Of a stretch of DNA of 41,427 bases, positions 3,195 to 28,424 are shown in pieces. This DNA is from Candidatus Poribacteria bacterium (GTDB lineage: Bacteria; Poribacteria; WGA-4E; B28-G17). The number at the start of each line of letters is the position of its first letter. Position 1 is the first letter of the stretch. Both the position numbers and the translations under genes were made by a program. The notes under the pieces were generated by a model. That model was given only the letters and a program-made list of their open reading frames with translations. It ran no database searches and was not told where the DNA came from. Location of the stretch: assembly GCA_021162805.1 (NCBI GenBank), contig JAGGXZ010000064.1:1-41427 (forward strand), given 5' to 3'.

Positions 3195-3224
3195 TTGACT
3201 CGGCCTTCGAGGTTGTGATATACT
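3195..3224 (+). promoter_or_regulatory. Sigma-70-type promoter for the MvhD/FdhB-like pair
   Basis: TTGACT (3195-3200), an 18-base spacer and TATACT (3219-3224). Transcription would begin near 3231, giving a leader of about 30 bases with GAGGAGG before the GTG at 3260. It is divergent from the GDPD promoter, and the two -35 boxes are about 17 bases apart. Confidence 0.72.
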
Positions 3225-3259
3225 TTACCTGCATACATATCCGTCGAGGAGGAGGCGAG

Positions 3260-3697
3260 GTGAAGGAGAGGCTGAAGATCGTGGCCTTTCTGTGTAACTG
3301 GTGCAGTTATGCGGGCGCGGACCTCGCCGGCGTAAGCCGGCTTCAATATCCGACGGAGGTGCGCATCGTCAGGGTTCCCTGTTCGGGCAGGGTCGACCCG
3401 ATGCTTGTGATCAAGGCGCTTCACGACGGCGCGGATGCCGTGTTGGTATCGGGATGTCATCCCGGGGACTGTCATTACACGAGCGGCAACCTGATAGCCA
3501 GACGCAGATTCGCCTTCCTCAAAAGCCTGCTGGATTACGTCGGCATAGAGGAAGGGCGGGTTTTCTTCGCCTGGATCTCCGCCTCAGAGGGGGGGAAATT
3601 CGCCGAGATCATCAGGCGGATCTCCGATAGGGTGAGGGAGATAGGGCGTTTTGAGAAGCTGAACGTGAACGCGGAGGCGTCGATCGATGAGAGCTGA
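3260..3697 (+). CDS. MvhD-family hydrogenase/heterodisulfide reductase iron-sulfur delta subunit
   Basis: A 145-residue protein of the FrhD/MvhD family, which carries a [2Fe-2S] cluster and passes electrons to heterodisulfide-reductase-type partners. Cysteines are in the family positions: FLCNWCSYAGADLAG at the N-terminus (C12, C15), VPCSGRVD in the middle, and SGCHPGDCHYTSGN. The GTG at 3260 is chosen because GAGGAGGCGAG sits directly before it and the upstream frame has no domain. It overlaps the next gene by 11 bases, so the two are translationally coupled. No hydrogenase large subunit, HdrA, HdrB or HdrC gene is in the window, so the electron donor is unknown. Confidence 0.88.
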   Translation: MKERLKIVAFLCNWCSYAGADLAGVSRLQYPTEVRIVRVPCSGRVDPMLVIKALHDGADAVLVSGCHPGDCHYTSGNLIARRRFAFLKSLLDYVGIEEGRVFFAWISASEGGKFAEIIRRISDRVREIGRFEKLNVNAEASIDES

Positions 3698-4619
3698 GGA
3701 GAGAATGCGGGCGAGGTTCAGGGAACTGCTGGACGAGGGGAGGGTGGAGGTCGTCCTGGGATACGCGCGACGTCCCTCGGGCAGGATCGGACCGGAGTTT
3801 ATCGAGGAGCCCGACGGGGTGGATCGTCTCGTCTGGAATCCGCTCTGTGATGTCAATCTGGCCAGATATCTCCGTGACCTGTGCGATAGGAGGGTGGCCG
3901 TCATCCTCAAAGGCTGCGACTCGAGGGCGGTCGTCGAGCTGTTGAAGGCCAATCAGCTCAGGCGCGAGAACCTCTTCATACTGGGGGCGCCGTGTCGCGG
4001 GATCATCGACCGCAGGAGGTTTCCCACCCCTCCGGAGGATGCCGAATGGGAGCCGGACGGGATAGCCGTTCATCTCAATGGGACACGGAGGAGGTTTGAG
4101 GGTGAGGAGATATCCTTCGAGGCCTGCCGTTCATGCAGATATCCCAATCCCGTCATATACGACGAGCTGATCGAGGAGCCCGTGGAGGTGGATCAGAGCC
4201 GGAATCCCTACGATGAGATCGAGGGGATAGAGAGGCTGAGCGGTGAGGAGAGATGGGAGCTCTTCAGGAGGGAGTTCGAGCGGTGTATCAGATGTTACGC
4301 CTGCCGAAACGCGTGTCCCCTCTGTTTCTGTGAGGAGTGTTTCGCGGAAAGCCTTCGGCCGAAATGGGTCGGCAGAGGGGTGCAGGTTAAGGAAAACATC
4401 ACCTTTCATCTGATCAGGATGATGCATCTGGCCGGTCGGTGCGTCGGATGCGGGGCGTGTGAGAGGGCCTGTCCGATGGACATAAGGCTCCACCTCCTGA
4501 CGCGCAAGATCGAGAGGATCGCCGAGGAGATGTTCGGATATGTGGCGGGGCTGAGCGTCGATGAACCTGACCTGTTGACGACCTTCTCGCAGGATGATCC
4601 GGGGGATTTCATCCTTTGA
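3687..4619 (+). CDS. FdhB/HdrA-associated 4Fe-4S dicluster electron-transfer protein
   Basis: 310 residues. The N-terminal 110 residues resemble the FrhB/FdhB N-terminal domain (NPLCDVNLARYL, VAVILKGCDSRA, NLFILGAPCRG). A middle segment has EACRSCRYPNP. The C-terminal part carries two ferredoxin-like clusters: C200xxC203xxC206xxxC210P followed by extra cysteines at 213, 215 and 218, and C252xxC255xxC258xxxC262P. It is probably a soluble electron carrier between a flavin or F420-like donor and the MvhD-like partner. Its start overlaps the end of the mvhD-like gene, with GGAGG nine bases upstream. Similar pairs occur in anaerobes beside Hdr or methylene-THF reductase genes, neither of which is here. 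The extra cysteine group after the first cluster is notable. Confidence 0.85.
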   Translation: MRAEERMRARFRELLDEGRVEVVLGYARRPSGRIGPEFIEEPDGVDRLVWNPLCDVNLARYLRDLCDRRVAVILKGCDSRAVVELLKANQLRRENLFILGAPCRGIIDRRRFPTPPEDAEWEPDGIAVHLNGTRRRFEGEEISFEACRSCRYPNPVIYDELIEEPVEVDQSRNPYDEIEGIERLSGEERWELFRREFERCIRCYACRNACPLCFCEECFAESLRPKWVGRGVQVKENITFHLIRMMHLAGRCVGCGACERACPMDIRLHLLTRKIERIAEEMFGYVAGLSVDEPDLLTTFSQDDPGDFIL

Positions 4620-4647
4620 CTTAAGCCCTAGACTGCGGAGGAATCGC

Positions 4648-4676
4648 TTGACATGGTCGGGAAGCGGTGCTATACT
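4648..4676 (+). promoter_or_regulatory. Consensus sigma-70-type promoter for the Ycf48-like gene
   Basis: A perfect TTGACA (4648-4653), a 17-base spacer and TATACT (4671-4676). The start codon is about 46 bases downstream at 4723. This is the best match to consensus in the window and suggests high basal expression. Confidence 0.85.
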
Positions 4677-4722
4677 AAAGGGCGTCTATGAAGAGTTGAA
4701 AGCGAAGGAGGAGGAATTTGCC

Positions 4723-5736
4723 ATGTTCATCCGTAACTGGACCTCTGTCGTCGTGGGCGTAGTTCTGGTCTGCCTGAGCTCCCTCGCCTTCGGTGGTTCC
4801 TGGGAGCTTATCTACAAGTCCGATCCGAACTCGGATATCGATCTCTATGCCATTCAATTCGTCAGCCCGAAGGAAGGATGGGCGGTTGGCGGTAAATTCA
4901 CGGAGGACAAGGGGATAGTCCTCCATACGACCGATGGCGGGAAGACCTGGGAGGCGCAGGAGAACCCGGCGGGACATACGCTTTGGGATCTTTGTTTCCT
5001 CAACAACAGCCTCGGATGGGCCGTCGGGGCCGATGGAACTATAATCATGACCAAGGATGGCGGGAAAACGTGGAAGGCGCAGATAAGCAAGGTTCAGAAC
5101 TGGCTTTATGGTGTGACCTTCCTCACCCCCAAGCTCGGATATGCCGTCGGAATGGGTGAGACGATACTGCGGACACGGGATGGAAGGACCTGGAAGATCC
5201 TCAAGGGCGGCAAGCCTCCTTCCGGCGTGGGTGAAGGCGAGGTGATGTTATCCGATGTCTGTTTCGTCAACGAGAAGAAGGGATGGACGGTGGGACAGAA
5301 CGGCGAGATACTCCACACCGAGGACGGCGGCAGGACGTGGAAACCTCAGACCAGCGGTCTGGAGCAGATGGCGCAGGAGTATAACCTCGTGCTATGGGGC
5401 GTTCATTTCATCAACGAGCTGAAAGGATGGGCTGTGGGAGATTACGGTATAATAATCCACACCGAGGACGGCGGTAAAACCTGGAAGCGACAGAAAAGCC
5501 CCGTCGAGGAGAATCTAAAGGACGTCTACTTCCTGCCGAACGGCAAAGAGGGCTGGGCGGTCGGAGCGATGGGAACGATCCTACATACCACCGATGGAGG
5601 CAAAACCTGGACGAAGGAGGACTGGACGAGCCCGACCAGGAGCAAAAACTACGAGTTCCGTGGCCTCTCCGTTCTCGATCCCAAGCACTGTTGGATCACA
5701 GGAGAATGGGGATTCGTCCTCAGATATAAGCCTTGA
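4723..5736 (+). CDS. Secreted Ycf48-like / BNR-repeat beta-propeller protein
   Basis: 337 residues from the ATG at 4723, preceded by GGAGGAGG. Residues 1-23 are a signal peptide (MFIRNW, then a hydrophobic core ending LAFGG). The rest is built of about seven repeats of the form GWAVGxxGxIxHTxDGGKTWxxQ, the BNR/Asp-box signature shared by the photosystem II assembly factor Ycf48 and sialidase-like propellers. Asp-boxes (DGGKTW) recur about every 45 residues. In non-photosynthetic bacteria such proteins are periplasmic or outer-surface propellers of unknown role. The gene is monocistronic: it has its own consensus promoter and a hairpin after it. No catalytic residues of a sialidase are visible. 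Confidence 0.88.
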   Translation: MFIRNWTSVVVGVVLVCLSSLAFGGSWELIYKSDPNSDIDLYAIQFVSPKEGWAVGGKFTEDKGIVLHTTDGGKTWEAQENPAGHTLWDLCFLNNSLGWAVGADGTIIMTKDGGKTWKAQISKVQNWLYGVTFLTPKLGYAVGMGETILRTRDGRTWKILKGGKPPSGVGEGEVMLSDVCFVNEKKGWTVGQNGEILHTEDGGRTWKPQTSGLEQMAQEYNLVLWGVHFINELKGWAVGDYGIIIHTEDGGKTWKRQKSPVEENLKDVYFLPNGKEGWAVGAMGTILHTTDGGKTWTKEDWTSPTRSKNYEFRGLSVLDPKHCWITGEWGFVLRYKP

Positions 5737-5819: not shown

Positions 5820-8519
5820 ATGGAATCGGAATGGCACGCCATCGATATATCTCAGCTCGCTCAGGAGCTTAACACCGATCTGACAAAAGGGCTGAAAAAC
5901 GATGAGGTTCCATCCAGGCTGATCAAGCGCGCCCCTCCTCGCGCGGAGGTCTTCCGGTATACCCCTCCGATTCAGCGATATCTTGTGATCTACCTCGCGA
6001 TTTTAATCCTTTCCTTCATCGCCCTGATGCTCACGGGTGAAAGGGGCGAGGCGATAGCCCTTCTCTCGTTCGCCGCTCTGGGGTCCCTCATCCTCCTTCT
6101 CGCCCGCCGTATCTCCTCCAGGGCAATGGATAAGGTCCCTATTCCCGAAGGCAAGGTCAAGGTTGTCAGGGAAGGCGAGCTCATAGAGGCGAGAGAGACG
6201 GCGATCGTGCCCGGGGATCTGATCGTCTTTGAAGCCGGCGATAGGGTCCCCGCCGATGTGAGGATCGTGAAATCCGAGGGGTTAAAGGTCGATCAAAACC
6301 GGATCTGGCCCGATAACCCTATCGCCGAGAAGAGAGCGGATGTCTGTCAGCCGGACGTCTCCCCTCCTGAGAGGCACAACATGATCTATAGAGGTTCATT
6401 CGTCCTGGAGGGGAAAGGGATGGGGGTGGTGGTGGCGGTGGACGACGAGGTTTCCCTCCCGGGGAGACGGAGGATCGGGCGACATTATGAGGAGACCGAG
6501 CCGCAGTTGATCGCCAATGATATATCCGTCAGGGCGCTCCTAGCATCGCTGATATTCGGATTGATAACCTTCGTCACCCTATGGGCGTTTAGGAGGAATT
6601 TCGCCTATAGCTTGAGCTTCGGCTCGGGCTTTATCGTCGCCTCCTTCCCGTGGACGCTCTCACTGCTGACATCGGGCATGATCCTGCGTTCCTTCGGGAT
6701 GATAAATCAGCGATATGCGCTGATGAAGCGTCTGATCGGAATGGATGATATCGACGATCTATCGATCCTATGTGTGGAAAGGGAGTGGGGGATAACCGAG
6801 GACAGATATCTGGTGGATATGGTCTTCCTGGATGGCAGGCTAATGACGAGGGAGGAGATGAGGGAGATCATATCCTTGGGAGATGCGAAAAAGGAGAACG
6901 ACCAGGGGGGAGAGGAAGGCGAGGAGGAGAAGGGTGATGAGGAGGATGAGAAGGAGCTCGCGGATGATCTGAAACTGCTCGCTACGACGGCCTATTTCTC
7001 GTTGAATTCCCGTTGGAACGAGGGCAGAGCACTACGGCTGTTGGACGAATACTCGTTCGATGAGGAGCTGGAGGGATTTTGCAGGGAGCTTGATCTCCCG
7101 TTGACGGAGTATCTGGCCACGCTGGAAAAGATATCGGAGCGGAATGGCGAGGACGGTTCCTTTCGGGCGGTTGTCATGCGAGATCCCGGTGGAACCTGTT
7201 TCACCTTCATGGCCGGATACGTCGGGGAGATGCTCAGCAAATGCTCCCACATCCTCGTGTTCGGTTCACAGGGTGGGATGGACGGCGAGAGAAAAGAGGC
7301 GCTCAGAAATGTGGCGGCGCATATGGAGAGGGAGGGGCTGAAGGTCATCGCCCTGGCATACGGTCAGCCCGAGGAGGTGGAGGAGGGGGAGTATAACCCC
7401 GAGAAGGCCGAATTCGGCCTCACGCTGGTCGGTCTGTTGGGGTTGAAGAATCCGGTAAGGGATGGGATCGCGGGCGCGATCTCATCCTGCAGGGAGTCGG
7501 GAATGAGGGTGGTAATAATGAGCGATGATGATCCGGAGTTCGCGTGTGACCTCGCGAGAGATATAGGTCTGATCGACTCAAGAACCTCCATGCTGGCGGA
7601 TGAGGAGATAGGGGAGATGACCGATCAGCAGTTGGAGGAGCAGATAGATCGCGTTTCGTTATACCTCTCCCTTTCGCCGCGGAACAAGGAGAAGGTGATA
7701 AGGGTTTCGCAGTCCAAGAAACATAAAGTGGGATTTATGAGTATCAGACATGAGGATTGGTCGCCTTTCAAGGCCTCGGACGTGAAGATCACATCCTTAC
7801 ATCGTGGGAGCGATCTGCTGGTGGAGGAATCGGATATCGCCTTAAGTCAGGGGGGGCTGGATGGGTTTGCAAAGGCGTTCAACCTCGTCAGATCGACCTT
7901 CCTCTCGGTTTACAACGCCATCAAGTGGCTTCTCTCATCACACCTCGGTCAGGGGTTGACCCTTCTGATCTCATTTCTGCTCTTGACCTTTTGGGCGGAT
8001 GGTTTCCCACTGCCGATGAGACTGAGACAGATACTGTGGCTCAATTTTTGGGCCGTGATGCTTCCCTCGATCGGCCTGATGGCCGAGGTCGGGCTATCCT
8101 CCGACCGGTGTGTGTCCTCGATCAGGAAGGTGAGGATCAACGAGGGATATAAGGTTGACATCTTGCTTCGCGGGGTTGTATTGGCGCTCATGGCTCTGTT
8201 AGGCGGGGTTTTGACGCTTGAATTCTCGAGATATGACGAATCCCTAGAGCTCAGGTTTCGCACGACCGTAGTGACGATCCTGCTTTTGGCCCAGCTTCTC
8301 TTCATCTTTCAGTGTCATCGCGGTCGAAGGGAGGGGCTGCTCGAAAGGATTGTGGCCAACAGGCCTTTGCTCGCCCTTGTGCTTTTAGCCATGGCGGCGC
8401 ATATCACCTCCATATATCTCACCCCCCTGGCAAATCTTCTCGGATTTTCGCCGATAGGCGTGGAGTGGGCGTGGATCGGCGTCCTGTGCCTCATACCTCT
8501 TTTGCCTTTAAACGCCTGA
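5820..8519 (+). CDS. Pseudo-P-type ATPase (P2-like fold, catalytic motifs lost)
   Basis: 899 residues, the full length of a P2-type cation ATPase. Order: N-terminal cation-ATPase segment (1-45), two helices (about 50-95), A domain with PGDLIVFEAGDRVPADVRI, helices 3-4 (about 237-290), P/N domains with an acidic insert (355-383), and six C-terminal helices (about 700-899) including RQILWLNFW. The scaffold matches strongly but the active site does not. DKTGTLT is E320-R-E-W-G-I-T, TGES is W163-P-D-N, PEGL is P277-W-T-L, KGAPE is M464-A-G-Y-V, DPPR is N544-P-V-R, TGD is S568-D-D, and GDGVND is S641-I-R-H-E-D. It is therefore unlikely to form the aspartyl phosphate. It has GGGGGAG before the ATG and lies 12 bases from the secreted cohesin gene. 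It may be a membrane scaffold, sensor or regulator. Confidence 0.87.
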   Translation: MESEWHAIDISQLAQELNTDLTKGLKNDEVPSRLIKRAPPRAEVFRYTPPIQRYLVIYLAILILSFIALMLTGERGEAIALLSFAALGSLILLLARRISSRAMDKVPIPEGKVKVVREGELIEARETAIVPGDLIVFEAGDRVPADVRIVKSEGLKVDQNRIWPDNPIAEKRADVCQPDVSPPERHNMIYRGSFVLEGKGMGVVVAVDDEVSLPGRRRIGRHYEETEPQLIANDISVRALLASLIFGLITFVTLWAFRRNFAYSLSFGSGFIVASFPWTLSLLTSGMILRSFGMINQRYALMKRLIGMDDIDDLSILCVEREWGITEDRYLVDMVFLDGRLMTREEMREIISLGDAKKENDQGGEEGEEEKGDEEDEKELADDLKLLATTAYFSLNSRWNEGRALRLLDEYSFDEELEGFCRELDLPLTEYLATLEKISERNGEDGSFRAVVMRDPGGTCFTFMAGYVGEMLSKCSHILVFGSQGGMDGERKEALRNVAAHMEREGLKVIALAYGQPEEVEEGEYNPEKAEFGLTLVGLLGLKNPVRDGIAGAISSCRESGMRVVIMSDDDPEFACDLARDIGLIDSRTSMLADEEIGEMTDQQLEEQIDRVSLYLSLSPRNKEKVIRVSQSKKHKVGFMSIRHEDWSPFKASDVKITSLHRGSDLLVEESDIALSQGGLDGFAKAFNLVRSTFLSVYNAIKWLLSSHLGQGLTLLISFLLLTFWADGFPLPMRLRQILWLNFWAVMLPSIGLMAEVGLSSDRCVSSIRKVRINEGYKVDILLRGVVLALMALLGGVLTLEFSRYDESLELRFRTTVVTILLLAQLLFIFQCHRGRREGLLERIVANRPLLALVLLAMAAHITSIYLTPLANLLGFSPIGVEWAWIGVLCLIPLLPLNA

Positions 8520-8531
8520 TGAGGTGAGAAG

Positions 8532-10478
8532 ATGAAGAGAGAGATATGTTTGTTTCTATTTCTCATCATATCGTCTCCCGCGTTCTGCGAAGTTCTGTAT
8601 ATATCGCCGGACGAGATCCAGCTTCCTTCCATAGGTGAGCTCGTCACGGTCGAGATCAAGGTGAAGGATGTCCAGAACCTCTTCGGCATCCAGCTCGACG
8701 TGCGGTATGATCCGAAGGTATTGAGTTTCGTCTCCGCCGAGGAGGGTGATTTTCTATCCTCCGATGGTGCCCCGACCTTTTTCAACCCTCCGGCCGATGA
8801 TGGGATGGGGACGGCTTCAGGGCTGGCCGTCTCCAGGCTTGGAAACGTATCAGGCCTTTCCGGTGAGGGAACGATAGCCAAAGTGACGTTTAAGGTCAAA
8901 TCCCATCTCCGATCCTCGATCGAGCTGGCCAATGTGCTGGCCTCCGATCCGAACGCTAACGAGATCTCCATGATCGTCCAAAACGCCACCCTGATCCCTC
9001 CCGCGGCCAATCAACCTCCTCAACCCTCGTTTCAGATATCGGGTGATCTCAAGGCGAACCGGTCCATCACCTTTGACGCCTCAGCCTCGACCGATCCTGA
9101 CGGTCAAATCGTCTCATACGAATGGGATTTCGGCGACGGGGAAAAGGGTGATGGGGTGGTGGTTCAACATGTATATTCCAAGGGCGGAACCTATACAGTT
9201 CTTTTGACCGTAACGGATGATAAGGGCGCCTCATCCCCTTTGTCCAGGACGATCGAGATCGAAAAGGTCGAGGTACAGAACCTTCCTCCCATACCGGTCA
9301 TGGTTATAGCGGGCAACCAGGTTGTTGGGGAGTCGATTAATTTCGACGCCTCGAGCTCCTCGGATCCCGACGGGCAGATCGTCTTATACGAATGGGATTT
9401 CGGCGACGGCGGTAGCTCGGATAAGAAGGTCATAAGCCATATCTATACATCGGAGGGCACCTATACGGTTAAGCTTACCGTCACGGATGACAAAGGGAGC
9501 TCGGTCACGGCGCGTAAAGATCTCGTCATATCCGGCAAACCGAAGCGGCCTCCAACCGCTTCCTTCAAGATCGAGGGGAGCCTTGTGGCTGGCGAGGAGA
9601 TCGTCTTCGACGCCTCGAGCTCTTCGGATCCCGACGGGCAGATCGTCTTATACGAATGGGATTTCGGCGACGGCGTTACCTTATCGGGCCAGCGCGTGGT
9701 TCATTCCTACCTCTCGCCGGGGCAATACCTGGTTAAGCTCGTCGTCAAGGATGATGCGGGCCTTTCGGCACAGACCGTTCGGGAGATCCGAATCTCGGCC
9801 AAGTTGGAGCCGGCGATAAGGGAACACAAGGCACACAGCCCCTCCCTTATGATGAACTTCAAGGTGGTTAAATCCGGCGAGCACGCCCACTGTTTCGTGG
9901 ACATATGGGAGGGTGAATACGAGATAAAAAGCGGCCAGTTCCTGGAGTATCAGATAATCTTCCTGTCGGGGGGAGCGGCTTATAACGGCGGGGTTGATCT
10001 CCTGACATCGGATGGGATCACCCTGGGAATGGTCCGTTCGGGCGATAAGACGGCGAAGGATCAGTATGGATTGGAGGCCGATGTCTCGACGGATCTAAGT
10101 CAGCCTGTGGAAAATCTCAAGCATGCGGCGCTTAACAGGTGGTATCATAGGAAGATATCGCTCGATCTGCTTGCGGGCGAGACATTGAAGAGGGTTATGC
10201 TCGGCTCGATCATAGATAACCCCTCGTCGGGGAAGGTCTCCTTCTTCGTCGATAACATCCAGATAACGGACGGCGAGCACAGGCTGCTTGACATCTACAT
10301 AGATCAGCCCAAGGTGCCCATAAACGGGGGGACAGACGTGGCCAGGACAAGCGATTATCTGGAACCGGTCAACGTCGTCGATCAATCCGTTGTGGTGAGC
10401 GGTCTTCCAAAGGCGGTTCATCCGTTGTGGAAGCTTCCCACCACCTGGGCTGAGATGAAACTGAGGGGAATGCGTTGA
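8532..10478 (+). CDS. Secreted cohesin-domain protein with three PKD repeats and C-terminal WG/WA tag
   Basis: 648 residues. Signal peptide 1-20 (MKREI, hydrophobic core, SSPAFC). Residues about 22-155 form a cohesin-like domain (FGIQLDVRYDPKVLSF, then GEGTIAKVTFKVK). Three PKD domains follow, each with the YEWDFGDG signature, at about residues 170-245, 255-335 and 340-425. A further beta-rich region of about 200 residues is not recognised. It ends WKLPTTWAEMKLRGMR, a version of the C-terminal signature seen on five other proteins here. GAGGTGAG precedes the ATG, and the gene lies 12 bases after the pseudo-ATPase gene, so the two are probably co-transcribed. Its likely role is surface adhesion or docking of dockerin proteins; one dockerin protein is encoded at 25506-28424. 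Confidence 0.85.
   Translation: MKREICLFLFLIISSPAFCEVLYISPDEIQLPSIGELVTVEIKVKDVQNLFGIQLDVRYDPKVLSFVSAEEGDFLSSDGAPTFFNPPADDGMGTASGLAVSRLGNVSGLSGEGTIAKVTFKVKSHLRSSIELANVLASDPNANEISMIVQNATLIPPAANQPPQPSFQISGDLKANRSITFDASASTDPDGQIVSYEWDFGDGEKGDGVVVQHVYSKGGTYTVLLTVTDDKGASSPLSRTIEIEKVEVQNLPPIPVMVIAGNQVVGESINFDASSSSDPDGQIVLYEWDFGDGGSSDKKVISHIYTSEGTYTVKLTVTDDKGSSVTARKDLVISGKPKRPPTASFKIEGSLVAGEEIVFDASSSSDPDGQIVLYEWDFGDGVTLSGQRVVHSYLSPGQYLVKLVVKDDAGLSAQTVREIRISAKLEPAIREHKAHSPSLMMNFKVVKSGEHAHCFVDIWEGEYEIKSGQFLEYQIIFLSGGAAYNGGVDLLTSDGITLGMVRSGDKTAKDQYGLEADVSTDLSQPVENLKHAALNRWYHRKISLDLLAGETLKRVMLGSIIDNPSSGKVSFFVDNIQITDGEHRLLDIYIDQPKVPINGGTDVARTSDYLEPVNVVDQSVVVSGLPKAVHPLWKLPTTWAEMKLRGMR
9342..9675. repeat. 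Near-identical 70-base direct repeats within the PKD region
   Basis: Bases 9342-9411 and 9606-9675 are 70-base direct repeats that differ at one position (CTCCT versus CTCTT). They encode the FDASSSSDPDGQ...YEWDFGDG core of PKD domains 2 and 3. PKD domain 1 (9070-9140) is clearly more divergent at the DNA level. This indicates recent duplication or gene conversion of one PKD module. Confidence 0.85.
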
Positions 10479-11256: not shown

Positions 11257-12033
11257 ATGGGGAGGCTTGTTGTGGCTTTGGCCCTGGTATTCAGCGGCGC
11301 AATTCTATCCTGGGCGGCTATACCGGTTCCAGAGCTTATAATCTACTACGACTACGAGGATTTCCAGAACGGGTTCGTCATCGACAAATCTGGACATGGC
11401 CATGACGGCAAGATCGTCGGCAACATCACGCAGGTTCCGGGCAAGCGGGGAATGGGAGCGCAATTCGAGAGGGGCAGCTATTTGGATCTGGATGGAGCTA
11501 ACTTCCCCGCCGATGACATACCCGAGGACGAGATGTCGGTCTGTGCATGGGTGAAATGTCAGAAGACGGGAGATCACCACGCCATTTTCAACGTCCGAGG
11601 CGGCGATGGGACATGGATAGTTCATCCGGAGCTGCGCAGCAACGGCCAGTTCAGATGGCTGTTGAGGACGAAGGGAGGATCAACCATATTCGACATCAGA
11701 GCGGGGACGGTGGAATGGGACACCTGGCTCCATTATGCGGGGGTATACAGTTCCATCCAGGGTTATGCGGCCCTCTATATAAACGGCAAGGAGGTCGCAA
11801 AGCAGAACACCTCCAAGCTTAAGCTGATGAAGGATTGGACCCAGGGAGCCCGTGTGGGATATAACATAGACAACGCCAGACCTTTCACGGGCATAATGGA
11901 TGATCTCTGCATCTGGGCTAAAGCGCTGACGCCCGACGAGATAAAGAACTTGATGGAGAACGGGCCTCTGCCCAAAGCCGTCTCAGCTCAGGATAAATTA
12001 GCGACAGTCTGGGGAGATCTGAAGAGGTTTTAA
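11257..12033 (+). CDS. Secreted LamG/concanavalin-like lectin protein with C-terminal WG tag (copy 1)
   Basis: 258 residues. Signal peptide 1-20 (MGRLVVALALVFSGAILSWA). The rest is one LamG-like jelly-roll domain (laminin G / concanavalin A superfamily): an IIYYDYEDFQNG opening strand, DKSGHGHDGKIVGN, MSVCAWVKC, LHYAGVYS, YINGKEV, ARVGYNIDNARPFTGIMDDL, then IWAKALTPDEIKNLMENG. It probably binds carbohydrate or acts as a surface structural protein. No catalytic residues are evident. The tail KLATVWGDLKRF is a clear case of the shared C-terminal signature. It is a tandem paralogue of the next gene and shares a 39-base identical stretch (11398-11436 and 12229-12267). Confidence 0.88.
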   Translation: MGRLVVALALVFSGAILSWAAIPVPELIIYYDYEDFQNGFVIDKSGHGHDGKIVGNITQVPGKRGMGAQFERGSYLDLDGANFPADDIPEDEMSVCAWVKCQKTGDHHAIFNVRGGDGTWIVHPELRSNGQFRWLLRTKGGSTIFDIRAGTVEWDTWLHYAGVYSSIQGYAALYINGKEVAKQNTSKLKLMKDWTQGARVGYNIDNARPFTGIMDDLCIWAKALTPDEIKNLMENGPLPKAVSAQDKLATVWGDLKRF

Positions 12034-12087: not shown

Positions 12088-12870
12088 ATGAAGCGATTAG
12101 GGATGCTGGCGCTTATCTGGGCCTTCGCCCTCGGGATGGCCGTTTGGAGTCTGGCCGCCCCGGAGATAGTGATCTACTACAGCTACGATAAGATCGTCGG
12201 CGATACGGTGGTCGACGAATCGGGCAACGGCCATGACGGCAAGATCGTCGGCAACATCACGCAGGTTGACGGCAAAAGGGGGAAGGCGGCCAAGTTCGAG
12301 AAGGGAAGCTATATCGACCTGGACGGGGCCAATTTCCCCAAAGAGGATATCCCAACCTCCGCCTTCACGATCGCCGCATGGGTGAACTGCGAGAACACCG
12401 GCGATAGCCACGCCATATTTAACGCGAGGGCGTCTGACGAAACCTGGCTCATCCACCCCGAACTACGCAGCGACGGGAGATTCAGGTTCTGTCTCCGCGG
12501 CTACGGCTCCAACAAGATCTGCGATATCAAGGCCGGAACGGTGACATGGGGCGAGTGGATACACTATGCCGGAACCTACGATAGATCCGCCAAGAAGGCG
12601 ATCCTCTACATCAACGGCGAGGTGCTCCAGGCGGTCGACGCCATGGCGGATGTGGACATCGCCGGCGACTGGGGATTGGGCGCACGGGTCGGATATAACA
12701 TAGATAACGCTAGACCCTTCACCGGATTGATGGACGATTTCGTCCTGTTCGGCAAGGCCCTTTCCCAGGATGAGATAAAGAGCCTCATGGAGAACGGGCC
12801 CCCCATCCCCTCCGCCGTGACGGGCAAAAACTGTCTCGCCACCTTCTGGGGCGCCGTCAAGACGTTCTGA
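12088..12870 (+). CDS. Secreted LamG/concanavalin-like lectin protein with C-terminal WG tag (copy 2)
   Basis: 260 residues, a tandem paralogue of the preceding gene with the same strand order: IVIYYSYDKIVGD, DESGNGHDGKIVGNITQV, FTIAAWVNC, WIHYAGTYD, YINGEVL, ARVGYNIDNARPFTGLMDDF, ALSQDEIKSLMENG. Signal peptide about 1-23 (MKRLGMLALIWAFALGMAVWSLA). GAGGAGGGTAAAG precedes the ATG. The tail reads CLATFWGAVKTF, another version of the C-terminal signature although with Cys where others have Lys. The copies share a 39-base identical segment while the rest has diverged, so local gene conversion or strong constraint on the GHDGKIVGNITQV loop is likely. Confidence 0.88.
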   Translation: MKRLGMLALIWAFALGMAVWSLAAPEIVIYYSYDKIVGDTVVDESGNGHDGKIVGNITQVDGKRGKAAKFEKGSYIDLDGANFPKEDIPTSAFTIAAWVNCENTGDSHAIFNARASDETWLIHPELRSDGRFRFCLRGYGSNKICDIKAGTVTWGEWIHYAGTYDRSAKKAILYINGEVLQAVDAMADVDIAGDWGLGARVGYNIDNARPFTGLMDDFVLFGKALSQDEIKSLMENGPPIPSAVTGKNCLATFWGAVKTF

Positions 12871-25505: not shown

Positions 25506-28424
25506 ATGCGAAATTTTCGATTTTTATCCCTTCTTCTCCTTCTGGTTTTCATCCTGTCGGCTACGTCGTTCGCCACCCGGGTCTATCATAAGCCTTTTAA
25601 CGGTGAGCTTACCGTCTCACGTCTGCCCCGTCTCGGCGGAGAGGGGACGCTCTCGCTTGAGCTGAGGTCTAGCCTGAGCGATCCTATCTTCGCCGAGGTG
25701 ATCCTCGTGGCTCCCGACGGCGTGAAGTTCCTCTCGCGGAGCCGTTTTGATCGGGTTTACCTCCCGCCTAGGGGTGAAACCTCGCTGAACGCCGTCATCG
25801 CCGTATCGCGTCCCGGCGAATACCCCATTCAGGCGATCGTCTACCCATCCGGACAGCATTTCTCGATATCTCTACACGTTGACGATTCGGGGTCAAGCGT
25901 CTCACGCGTCGTACATCTTCCCGAAAGGGCGCTCGTGCGAAGCGAGCTGGCCTCCGTCACCCCCCAGCAGCCCGACACGTTGAAGGTATTCGGCAGGGTG
26001 ACATATTACGACGACAACGAGCGCAAATTTATGCCGATAAAAGGGCTTCCACTGGAGCTTTTCGATTCGAACATGCTCCTCGACACGAAACTGGGTGAAA
26101 CCGTCACCGATAAGGATGGGAGGTTTGAATTCCCACCCGTCTCCAACCGCGAGGCGGACGGGACGCATCTTGACGTCTATATCCTCGCCACCTTCGACAA
26201 CGCGATCCTCTCGATCGAGGACGGATCCGGCAAGATCTATCAGATCATCTCCGAGGTGGTTCGGAACGCCCCCGACGGCGATGTGGAGATAAATCTCATC
26301 CTGGACGAAAACCACCCCAACAGAGGGCTAGGGGCGATATTCAATGAGGTTCAAAAAGTCCATGACTTCTTCCTGGAGAAGGTGGGATGGTCGCGCAGGA
26401 AGCTGCCCGTGCTTTATCCGTCTGAGGGGGATACCCTTTTCTACTCGTATTCCTACAATCAGCTATCGGGTCAGATAGTTTCCGAGAGGATGAACATCCC
26501 CTACGGCGAGGAGTGGCATAAGGTGGGTTTATTTCACGAATACGGCCATTCGGTCATGAGCGCCGCCTATGGGTTTAACTTCTACGAGCTTCCGATATCC
26601 GAGCGGTTTGCCGATAGACCACACTGGGTTTACACCGTCTCAGACGAGCGATTTGCCATGAACGAGGGATGGGCGGAGTTCGTGGAGTCGGCCGTCGAAG
26701 ATAGCGCCTTTAACCTCAGGGGATATGTGAACGCGGATCTCCCGAATATCGAGACCAACAGATGGTGGACAGGGGCGGTTGACGGCAAGGGGATCAACGA
26801 TAACGGGGCGATAGTTGAGGGATCGGTGGCCAGTATCCTCTGGGATATCTTCGACACACCTCAAAGCATTGATACCACGCCCGGTGTGGACGACGACCGG
26901 ATAAGCGATATGTTCGGGCAGCTCTGGCAGATATTCACCGCGGATCATCCCAAAAGCATACTGGATATAGTCGAGGGATGGCGTAAATACGGGTTTGAGA
27001 ACTACGACGCTCTGGTCGAGATATTCGCCTCAAACGGGGTTCAGCTCGATCTAAATCAACCTCCATCCATCCGAATAACCTCCCCATCCCAGCTGACCGT
27101 GACATCCGATGGGGTTCACATCTCCTGGGAGGTTTCCGATCCGGACGGAGACCCCGTCTCTGTAGCTCTCTACTATGATACCGACCGGACGCCGCCCGGG
27201 ACGCTGATAGCATCAGGGTTGACCGGGGAAGGCTACGATTGGAAGCCCGTGAAGATGGGGTTGCCCGATGGCAGGTATTACATCTATGCCGTCGCCGCCG
27301 ATCCGAAGGGAGCCAAAGCTCAATCATATGGGCCGATCCCGATCATAGTCGATAGGTCTCCGCTCCCACCTCCTCTCATAACCTCCCCAACCCATCCGGA
27401 TCGGGACAGATGGTATCCGACGGGAAATGTGACGTTGAAGCTGGAATCCCGTTCTCAGACCTTCAGCATCGTGCTGGACAGATCACCCGATACAACGCCG
27501 GATGAGAAGGCGGATATCTACAGGGATACGATCGCCTATTTGAACCTCCCGGACGGCATATGGTGGTTTCACGCCAGGGCGTATTCCGCTTTGGGATACT
27601 GGAGCGGAGCGTCGCATTTCAGCTTCAGGGTGGATTCCTCTCCTCCCCCGTCTCCGGATGGGATCGGCATACAACCCGTTAAGGGCGAGATGAGAGGAAT
27701 GATCACCTGGAAACCGGTCGAGGATCTGAGCGGCATATCCGGCTATGACGTGCAGGTTGAAGTTGATTCGACCGATTTTTCGCGGGGACTTGTGCTGAAC
27801 GAGAGGGTGAACGGGACTGAGGCGGAATTTGATCTCGCTCCGGGCCATACATATCGCGCCCGCGTCAGGGCGGTGAACGGAGCGGGGCTTTCGAGCGGAT
27901 GGAGCTATTCGCCCGATTTTGAGTCGCCAAAGGTCGTTCCGTGGGATGTCAACGGCGATGGGACGGTGGACATATTCGATTTGGTGTTGGTCGCCAGGAA
28001 TTTCGGCGGGGCTTCGGCTCAGGCCGATCTGAACGGGGACGGCAGGGTGGACGTGCTGGATCTGGTTCTCGTGGGGAGACATTTCGGCGAACAAACGGAA
28101 CAGGCCGCTCCGGCAAAGCCGGTCGTCGAGCTGACGGAGCTTCTGCAATGTTATCCCAACCCGTTTAACCCCGAAACATGGCTTCCGTTTACGCTCGGCG
28201 AGTTCGGAAAGGTGACGATCACCATCTATGATCTGAACGGCAGAGCTATCAGGCACATAGATATGGGGTACCTGGAGCCGGGGAGGTATATCGAGAAGTC
28301 CAGAGCACCGATGTGGGATGGGAGGGACGATAGAGGTGAGCAACTGCCCTGTGGGGTTTACTTCTATTCGCTTCAGGTGGATGGGAGATCAAAGGGCCTG
28401 AAGAAGGCCGTTCTGGAGAGGTGA
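25506..28424 (+). CDS. Secreted multidomain metalloprotease with dockerin and T9SS-like sorting domain
   Basis: 972 residues. Signal peptide 1-23. An N-terminal Ig-like domain and a carboxypeptidase-regulatory-like domain (about 155-235, VTDKDGRFEFPPV) come first. A zincin domain follows with H344-E-Y-G-H348 and, about 43 residues on, E387 in MNEGWAEFVE, a gluzincin-like ligand set. Two beta-sandwich domains (about 515-620 and 620-710) and an FnIII-like domain (about 720-810) follow. A dockerin-like pair of calcium loops sits at about 814 and 840 (DVNGDGTVDIFDLVLVARNF and DLNGDGRVDVLDLVLVGRHF). The C-terminus (883-972) is YPNPFNPETWLPF...MWDGRDDRGEQLPCGVYFY, the FlgD-like type IX sorting class. 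It is likely surface-bound or released by that system. Confidence 0.88.
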   Translation: MRNFRFLSLLLLLVFILSATSFATRVYHKPFNGELTVSRLPRLGGEGTLSLELRSSLSDPIFAEVILVAPDGVKFLSRSRFDRVYLPPRGETSLNAVIAVSRPGEYPIQAIVYPSGQHFSISLHVDDSGSSVSRVVHLPERALVRSELASVTPQQPDTLKVFGRVTYYDDNERKFMPIKGLPLELFDSNMLLDTKLGETVTDKDGRFEFPPVSNREADGTHLDVYILATFDNAILSIEDGSGKIYQIISEVVRNAPDGDVEINLILDENHPNRGLGAIFNEVQKVHDFFLEKVGWSRRKLPVLYPSEGDTLFYSYSYNQLSGQIVSERMNIPYGEEWHKVGLFHEYGHSVMSAAYGFNFYELPISERFADRPHWVYTVSDERFAMNEGWAEFVESAVEDSAFNLRGYVNADLPNIETNRWWTGAVDGKGINDNGAIVEGSVASILWDIFDTPQSIDTTPGVDDDRISDMFGQLWQIFTADHPKSILDIVEGWRKYGFENYDALVEIFASNGVQLDLNQPPSIRITSPSQLTVTSDGVHISWEVSDPDGDPVSVALYYDTDRTPPGTLIASGLTGEGYDWKPVKMGLPDGRYYIYAVAADPKGAKAQSYGPIPIIVDRSPLPPPLITSPTHPDRDRWYPTGNVTLKLESRSQTFSIVLDRSPDTTPDEKADIYRDTIAYLNLPDGIWWFHARAYSALGYWSGASHFSFRVDSSPPPSPDGIGIQPVKGEMRGMITWKPVEDLSGISGYDVQVEVDSTDFSRGLVLNERVNGTEAEFDLAPGHTYRARVRAVNGAGLSSGWSYSPDFESPKVVPWDVNGDGTVDIFDLVLVARNFGGASAQADLNGDGRVDVLDLVLVGRHFGEQTEQAAPAKPVVELTELLQCYPNPFNPETWLPFTLGEFGKVTITIYDLNGRAIRHIDMGYLEPGRYIEKSRAPMWDGRDDRGEQLPCGVYFYSLQVDGRSKGLKKAVLER

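Follow-up and report, generated by a model that had tools for sequence, protein, structure and literature searches.

A phylum-specific P-type pseudo-ATPase in Poribacteria, very probably no longer a pump and possibly a membrane scaffold or sensor

What defines P-type ATPases is a phosphorylated aspartate, and the locus described here raises the question of what such a protein does when its fold persists throughout almost an entire bacterial class while the defining chemistry is gone. The locus lies in a window of 41,427 nucleotides, the whole stretch analysed (contig JAGGXZ010000064.1, positions 1 to 41,427, Candidatus Poribacteria bacterium assembly GCA_021162805.1). A preliminary description of the window, made without database searches, had claimed that one gene encodes an intact 899-aa P2-type homologue with substituted catalytic motifs and retained membrane helices and domain layout, that the protein carries an acidic 29-residue insert (355-383), and that it is probably kept for a non-pumping role such as scaffold, lipid sensor or ion sensor. 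Our analysis favors a pseudo-ATPase of P-type descent that is specific to the phylum and most likely serves as a membrane scaffold or sensor, binding a partner through M7-M10 and the L8-9 loop. We give this reading a probability of roughly 0.6, with role and partner both being inferences.

The open reading frame is uninterrupted over 899 aa, and its product matches the Pfam models E1-E2_ATPase (A domain with M4, 5.6e-21), Cation_ATPase_C (1e-13) and Cation_ATPase_N (2.5e-4). The same search did not find the N domain and picked up the P domain only as a trace below threshold. Scores against the NCBIfam Ca2+-, Mg2+- and Na,K-ATPase models are far under their cut-offs; the closest solved structure in a PDB search is the Listeria Ca2+-ATPase LMCA1 (6e-51). 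AlphaFold models built with orthologue alignments, one of the window protein (pLDDT 84.6, pTM 0.82) and one of a class-typical member (pLDDT 84.0, pTM 0.76), both match P2-type ATPases over their full length. The protein thus meets the definition of the P-type superfamily by descent, namely full-length homology together with A, P, N and ten-helix membrane domains, and this homology is established. On the evidence of the reading frame, the Pfam and PDB matches and the predicted full-length P2 fold, the claims of an intact homologue and of retained helices and domains held. For both models the top TM-scores among the listed PDB matches belong to open E1 pumps, e.g., E1-sarcolipin SERCA (4h1w) and E1-Mg Na,K-ATPase (8jfz). 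The P2 architecture is therefore predicted to survive in an E1-like form, with the caveat that the conformation of a model is no evidence for the resting state.

The coordinates of the gene, its domains and its substituted motifs are collected in Table 1. A column-by-column alignment agrees with every motif placement that had been proposed (TGES, PEGL, DKTGT, KGAPE, DPPR, TGD and GDGVND). In the P domain, DPPR has become NPVR (544-547), TGD has become SDD (568-570) and GDGVND has become SIRHED (641-646). The alignment adds losses that the preliminary description had missed, both at the ion site (E309 to W278, E771 to Q711 and D800 to V746) and at the nucleotide site (K515 to A465 and R560 to K508). 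The acidic insert failed as a special feature. The linker between the P and N domains ranges from 21 to 69 aa across the family (median 38), and the window protein has its lineage's version of it, 43 aa long, 44% acidic and low in pLDDT. Because linker length varies across the family, we ruled out the insert as a functional element.

Table 1 Features of the pseudo-ATPase gene and its upstream neighbor, with positions in the window.
Feature	Position	Strand	Basis
YCF48/BNR beta-propeller protein, 83 bp upstream of pseudo-ATPase	4594..5736	+	
P2-type pseudo-ATPase gene, 899 aa	5820..8519	+	ORF, homology, orthologues
A domain, aa 109-232; structural VPGD...GDxxPAD.R core retained	6144..6515	+	Pfam, column counts
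WPDN replacing TGES, aa 163-166	6306..6317	+	Alignment columns
PWTL replacing M4 PEGL, aa 277-280; ion-site Glu to Trp	6648..6659	+	Alignment columns
P domain, first part, aa 307-343	6738..6848	+	dN/dS by domain, model
E320 codon at phosphorylated-Asp position (DKTGT to EREWG)	6777..6779	+	Alignment columns
Degenerate N domain, aa 344-535; nucleotide-site residues gone	6849..7424	+	Column counts, Pfam
Acidic low-confidence linker between P and N domains, aa 355-383; variable length family-wide	6882..6968	+	
MAGYV replacing KGAPE, aa 464-468	7209..7223	+	Alignment columns
P domain, second part, aa 536-690; K623 and D646 retained	7425..7889	+	Column counts
M5-M10, aa 691-899; M7-M10 more constrained than in canonical pumps	7890..8516	+	Model, entropy
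Cytosolic L8-9 signature, aa 831-847, QCHRGRREGLLERIVAN in the window; newly conserved across most of the pseudo family	8310..8360	+	
C-terminal PLN signature, aa 896-898	8505..8513	+	Pseudo-specific columns

The substitutions are not peculiar to one genome. A search profile built from 17 orthologues and run over 85 poribacterial genomes found a match in all 85, and, among the 83 genomes analysed from the window's class, the window genome included, 82 carry the pseudo-ATPase gene. The only class genome without it (G054) is 81% complete. Orthologues are usually single intact ORFs of 900-980 residues, a few being contig-end fragments, and intact ORFs recur in independent assemblies across the 82 genomes, complete chromosomes among them. 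No second P2-type ATPase was seen among the listed class matches, the remainder of which are short-scoring P1B pumps; in the window genome itself, the pseudo-ATPase is the sole P-type ATPase recovered with the E1-E2_ATPase model.

Motif and column counts were read from 71 distinct family sequences, and TGES, DKTGT, KGAPE, DPPR and GDGxND are absent from all of them. TGE[SA] occurs in 0/71, with the reservation that one sequence (L004) reads FIES at this position and may retain the Glu under another gap placement. The phosphorylated-Asp column holds N in 37 sequences, D in 30, E in 2, and H and Q in one each; parsimony places a minimum of six switches to or from Asp on the tree, all within the pseudo clade and none in the canonical rows. 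Lys352 is kept in a single sequence and is Glu in 62/71, while neither Lys515 of KGAPE nor the Mg2+ ligand Asp703 of GDGxND is found in any. Positions 771 and 800, which are the Ca2+ ligands E771 and D800 in P2A pumps, never hold an acid (0/71). The E309 position in M4 is E in eight sequences and D in three, and W in the window protein; among membrane positions, the entropy of this column moves from the 5th percentile in canonical pumps to the 98th in the pseudo family. Pfam tells the same story for the cytoplasmic domains, with the N-domain model matched by 8 of 47 family members and the hydrolase model by 12 of 47. What remains are the A-domain VPGD and GDxxPAD signatures, the Asp707 equivalent (70/71) and a Lys or Arg at 684 (70/71).

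Other residues are newly fixed. In 80 columns the pseudo family conserves a residue that is rare in canonical pumps, including Phe for Thr181, Glu for Lys352 and Phe for Lys515. Most families also share an M8-M9 loop, QCxRxxWESLxxRxxAN, and a C-terminal LPLN, both pseudo-specific; the window protein, which is among the most divergent members, keeps these signatures in part. The former ion pocket is mostly neutral-polar class-wide (T768 in 54/71, Q796 in 53/71, T800 in 49/71 and Q at the M8 position in 57/71), whereas the window lineage has W, H, Q, N, A and V there and lacks the Q/T pattern.

Could the motif loss reflect the lineage or the search? All 40 P2 homologues checked from other phyla retain DKTGT, TGD and GDGxND, as do all 11 P1B pumps of the window's class, so neither the lineage nor the search accounts for it. 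Motif loss as a general trait of the phylum's P-type ATPases is excluded by the intact same-class P1B pumps, and an artefact of distant searching by the other-phylum homologues. In a tree computed with the motif columns removed, all degenerate sequences form one clade (SH-aLRT 100), and the pseudo-ATPase family has a single origin. The clade includes one copy from a genome of a sister class in the same phylum (G059), which also carries canonical P2-type copies (L083; L084 and L085), a living and a dead paralogue side by side; a second sister-class genome (G060) has only a canonical P2-type copy (L086). Branching order within the clade is uncertain because this was a quick tree with long branches. 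The simplest history, which we infer, is an early poribacterial P2 duplication, after which one copy lost catalysis and the working copy was later lost in the window's class.

The genes are under selection. Across 123 orthologue pairs, restricted to dS 0.05-1.2, the median dN/dS is 0.117 (range 0.074-0.290), which shows purifying selection. Neighboring genes in the same species pairs give 0.075 (thrB, homoserine kinase), 0.034 (AspAT, aspartate aminotransferase) and 0.109 (YCF48); the pseudo-ATPase thus evolves as an ordinary conserved gene. By region, the dead P domain is lowest (0.052 for its first half and 0.073 for its second), followed by M5-M10 (0.099). The window sequence and its only family relative (G001) give dN 0.49 and dS 1.73 over 357 codons, which is near saturation and well under 1. 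With catalytic residues missing from orthologues that remain under purifying selection (82/83 genomes, dN/dS 0.117), the family satisfies the sequence-based criterion for a pseudoenzyme. The preliminary description had also named three checks on itself, and none overturned it: no orthologue with canonical motifs was found; a pattern search for a DKTGT hidden under another alignment returned 0/71 family members, which rules that possibility out; and dN/dS is about 0.12 rather than near 1.

Over longer distances, constraint has shifted within the protein. Relative entropy in the pseudo family exceeds that of canonical pumps in M1-M2 (1.16 versus 1.00), M3-M4 (1.13 versus 0.95) and the second part of the P domain (0.94 versus 0.74), and falls below it in M7-M10 (0.98 versus 1.29, with canonical subsamples ranging from 1.24 to 1.36). 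Long-range constraint is therefore down in M1-M4 and the P domain and up in M7-M10. This comparison sets a one-phylum set against a many-phyla set and was normalised by overall entropy with no other correction. Subject to that difference in taxonomic breadth, we infer that the pattern is what would be expected if transport had become irrelevant and the C-terminal bundle had a job.

These results answer the first half of the question. An ancestral poribacterial P2 (Ca2+-type) ATPase has lost its phosphorylation, dephosphorylation, ATP/Mg2+ and ion-site acid residues and has kept its A, P and N domains and ten helices; that much is shown by the sequences. It is very likely, and strongly supported, that the pump cycle went with them, leaving no phospho-enzyme and no ATP-driven transport, although this is inferred without any biochemistry. 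Five lines of evidence support the claim of a protein retained for a non-pumping role: (i) class-wide conservation, (ii) purifying selection, (iii) repeated loss of the phosphorylated Asp, (iv) loss of the ion-site acids and (v) the shift of constraint to M7-M10. The evidence does not decide among scaffold, lipid sensor and ion sensor, but it disfavors an ion sensor relative to the other two, since the acidic ligands of M5 and M6 are absent in 71/71 and the M4 Glu column is highly variable.

In the mechanism we propose, the pseudo-ATPase would be unable to run the E1-E2 cycle and would rest in the membrane in a single E1-like shape. Its A-P core would hold the fold or relay a change of shape, the newly constrained M7-M10 bundle, L8-9 loop and C-terminus would bind a partner, and the whole would act as a scaffold or a ligand-responsive sensor. 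Na,K-ATPase accessory subunits and SERCA regulators bind the membrane bundle, so the P-type fold has surfaces fit for partner binding; the face bound by the Na,K-ATPase accessory subunits corresponds to the M7-M10 bundle, L8-9 and the C-terminus. The reading stands without partner, ligand, expression or knock-out data.

The alternative that survives best, which we nevertheless consider unlikely, makes the protein a carrier or channel, passive or gated by a ligand: the ATP machinery would have been discarded, and the ten-helix path would still conduct a solute, perhaps an amino acid or another neutral polar compound. In its favor are the mostly neutral-polar former ion pocket (T768, Q796, T800 and the M8 Q), the position of the gene behind AspAT and thrB in most families, and, among the PDB structure matches, an entry for Na,K-ATPase opened by palytoxin, a toxin able to turn that pump into a channel. 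However, the helices M1-M4, which gate and line the pathway, have relaxed more than any other part when compared with canonical pumps, the M4 Glu column ranks at the 98th percentile of variability, and conservation of the pocket columns is unremarkable. In addition, the window lineage is without the Q/T pattern and its genome is without a clear thrB.

A still less probable alternative, very unlikely in our view, is that the protein remains an enzyme whose substituted P and N domains handle ATP or a phospho-ligand, using the Asp retained in about 40% of sequences or Glu/Asn chemistry. At short range no region is more constrained than the dead P domain (dN/dS 0.05-0.07), and the equivalents of Asp707 and Lys/Arg684 (70/71 each) and Asp351 (30/71) persist; some P-domain chemistry or ligand binding is on these grounds not formally excluded. 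Against this, Asp703 and Lys515 are missing from 71/71, at least 70/71 lack the TGES Glu, and 62/71 carry Glu in place of Lys352; the phosphorylated Asp has been exchanged at least six times, and few members match the Pfam N-domain (8/47) or hydrolase (12/47) models. Finally, a remnant that is decaying or evolving neutrally, or an error of assembly or annotation, might be suspected because decay starts with motif loss and the data come from MAGs, but intact ORFs in 82 genomes, dN/dS of 0.12, a conserved neighborhood and 80 pseudo-specific columns refute this for the family, and we consider it extremely unlikely overall.

The preferred reading of a scaffold or sensor has few parallels among P-type ATPases. 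The P2A Ca2+-ATPases (LMCA1 of Listeria, PMR1/SPCA1 and SERCA) share full-length homology, the A, P and N domains and the ten-helix fold with the pseudo-ATPase, but the whole pseudo clade lacks the phosphorylation-cycle motifs, nucleotide-site residues and acidic ion ligands. C. elegans CATP-1, a Na,K-ATPase-like alpha subunit described as a Na+/K+ pump (PMC11631496), is a single P-type ATPase with a known non-pumping role (cited in PMC11631496); unlike the family described here, it belongs to a canonical pump family and not to a motif-less clade. In the P4-ATPase-guanylate cyclase fusions of apicomplexans and ciliates a P-type module lies upstream of signalling (PMC7858053), and in the P. falciparum protein the conserved catalytic Asp is required (PMC7858053), whereas the pseudo-ATPase can do without the Asp and carries no fused output domain. 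Pseudokinases and inactive rhomboids have kept a fold and lost catalysis under purifying selection, presumably for a scaffold or allosteric role, and the pseudo-ATPase resembles them in its retained fold, lost catalytic residues and ongoing purifying selection. No precedent for a clade-wide P-type pseudo-ATPase or for the poribacterial family was found in the literature searched, which was limited to open access.

A bolder reading, which we hold to be slightly less likely than not, is that the lineage swapped its P2 pump for a dead version that it cannot lose, an ATP- and ion-independent receptor or scaffold with an undiscovered partner; if true, one of the best-studied superfamilies of transporters would gain a new functional class. 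The newly constrained residues in M7-M10, the L8-9 loop and the C-terminus make a search for that partner directly testable, and the genome with living and dead paralogues is a natural experiment on other uses of the fold. There is also a warning for annotation. An automatic database label would still call the family a pump, and the name 'cation-transporting ATPase' does not fit it, since every defining enzyme feature tested fails.

In a survey of 61 loci, a set in which some genomes are counted twice, most families show the order YCF48/BNR propeller, AspAT, thrB, pseudo-ATPase on the same strand, with thrB directly upstream of the pseudo-ATPase and the gap usually <150 bp. This linkage points to co-transcription in most lineages, an inference from gene order. 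A functional tie to threonine synthesis is weakened by the window genome and by one other genus (g14 of family f6), neither of which has an adjacent thrB. In that genus the pseudo-ATPase is present and the cluster absent, and in the window genome no thrB match exceeded the curated cut-off. Since the pseudo-ATPase is retained even where thrB is missing, no role in threonine synthesis need be invoked. Of the ancestral YCF48-AspAT-thrB-pseudo-ATPase cluster, the window retains only YCF48 next to the gene.

Across poribacterial families, the YCF48-like BNR propeller gene is itself conserved in the neighborhood of AspAT, thrB and the pseudo-ATPase. At 3215-4619 the window encodes what we take, judging from sequence, to be a short MvhD-type iron-sulfur subunit overlapping a 4Fe-4S protein, a pair that resembles heterodisulfide-reductase-linked electron transfer pairs. 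A cohesin and PKD-repeat protein (8532-10478) starts 12 bp past the pseudo-ATPase, and its product may form a cohesin-dockerin pair with a dockerin-bearing protein encoded at 25506-28424. Two tandem LamG-domain (Laminin_G_3) proteins, at 11257-12033 and 12088-12870, are probably the result of a recent duplication.
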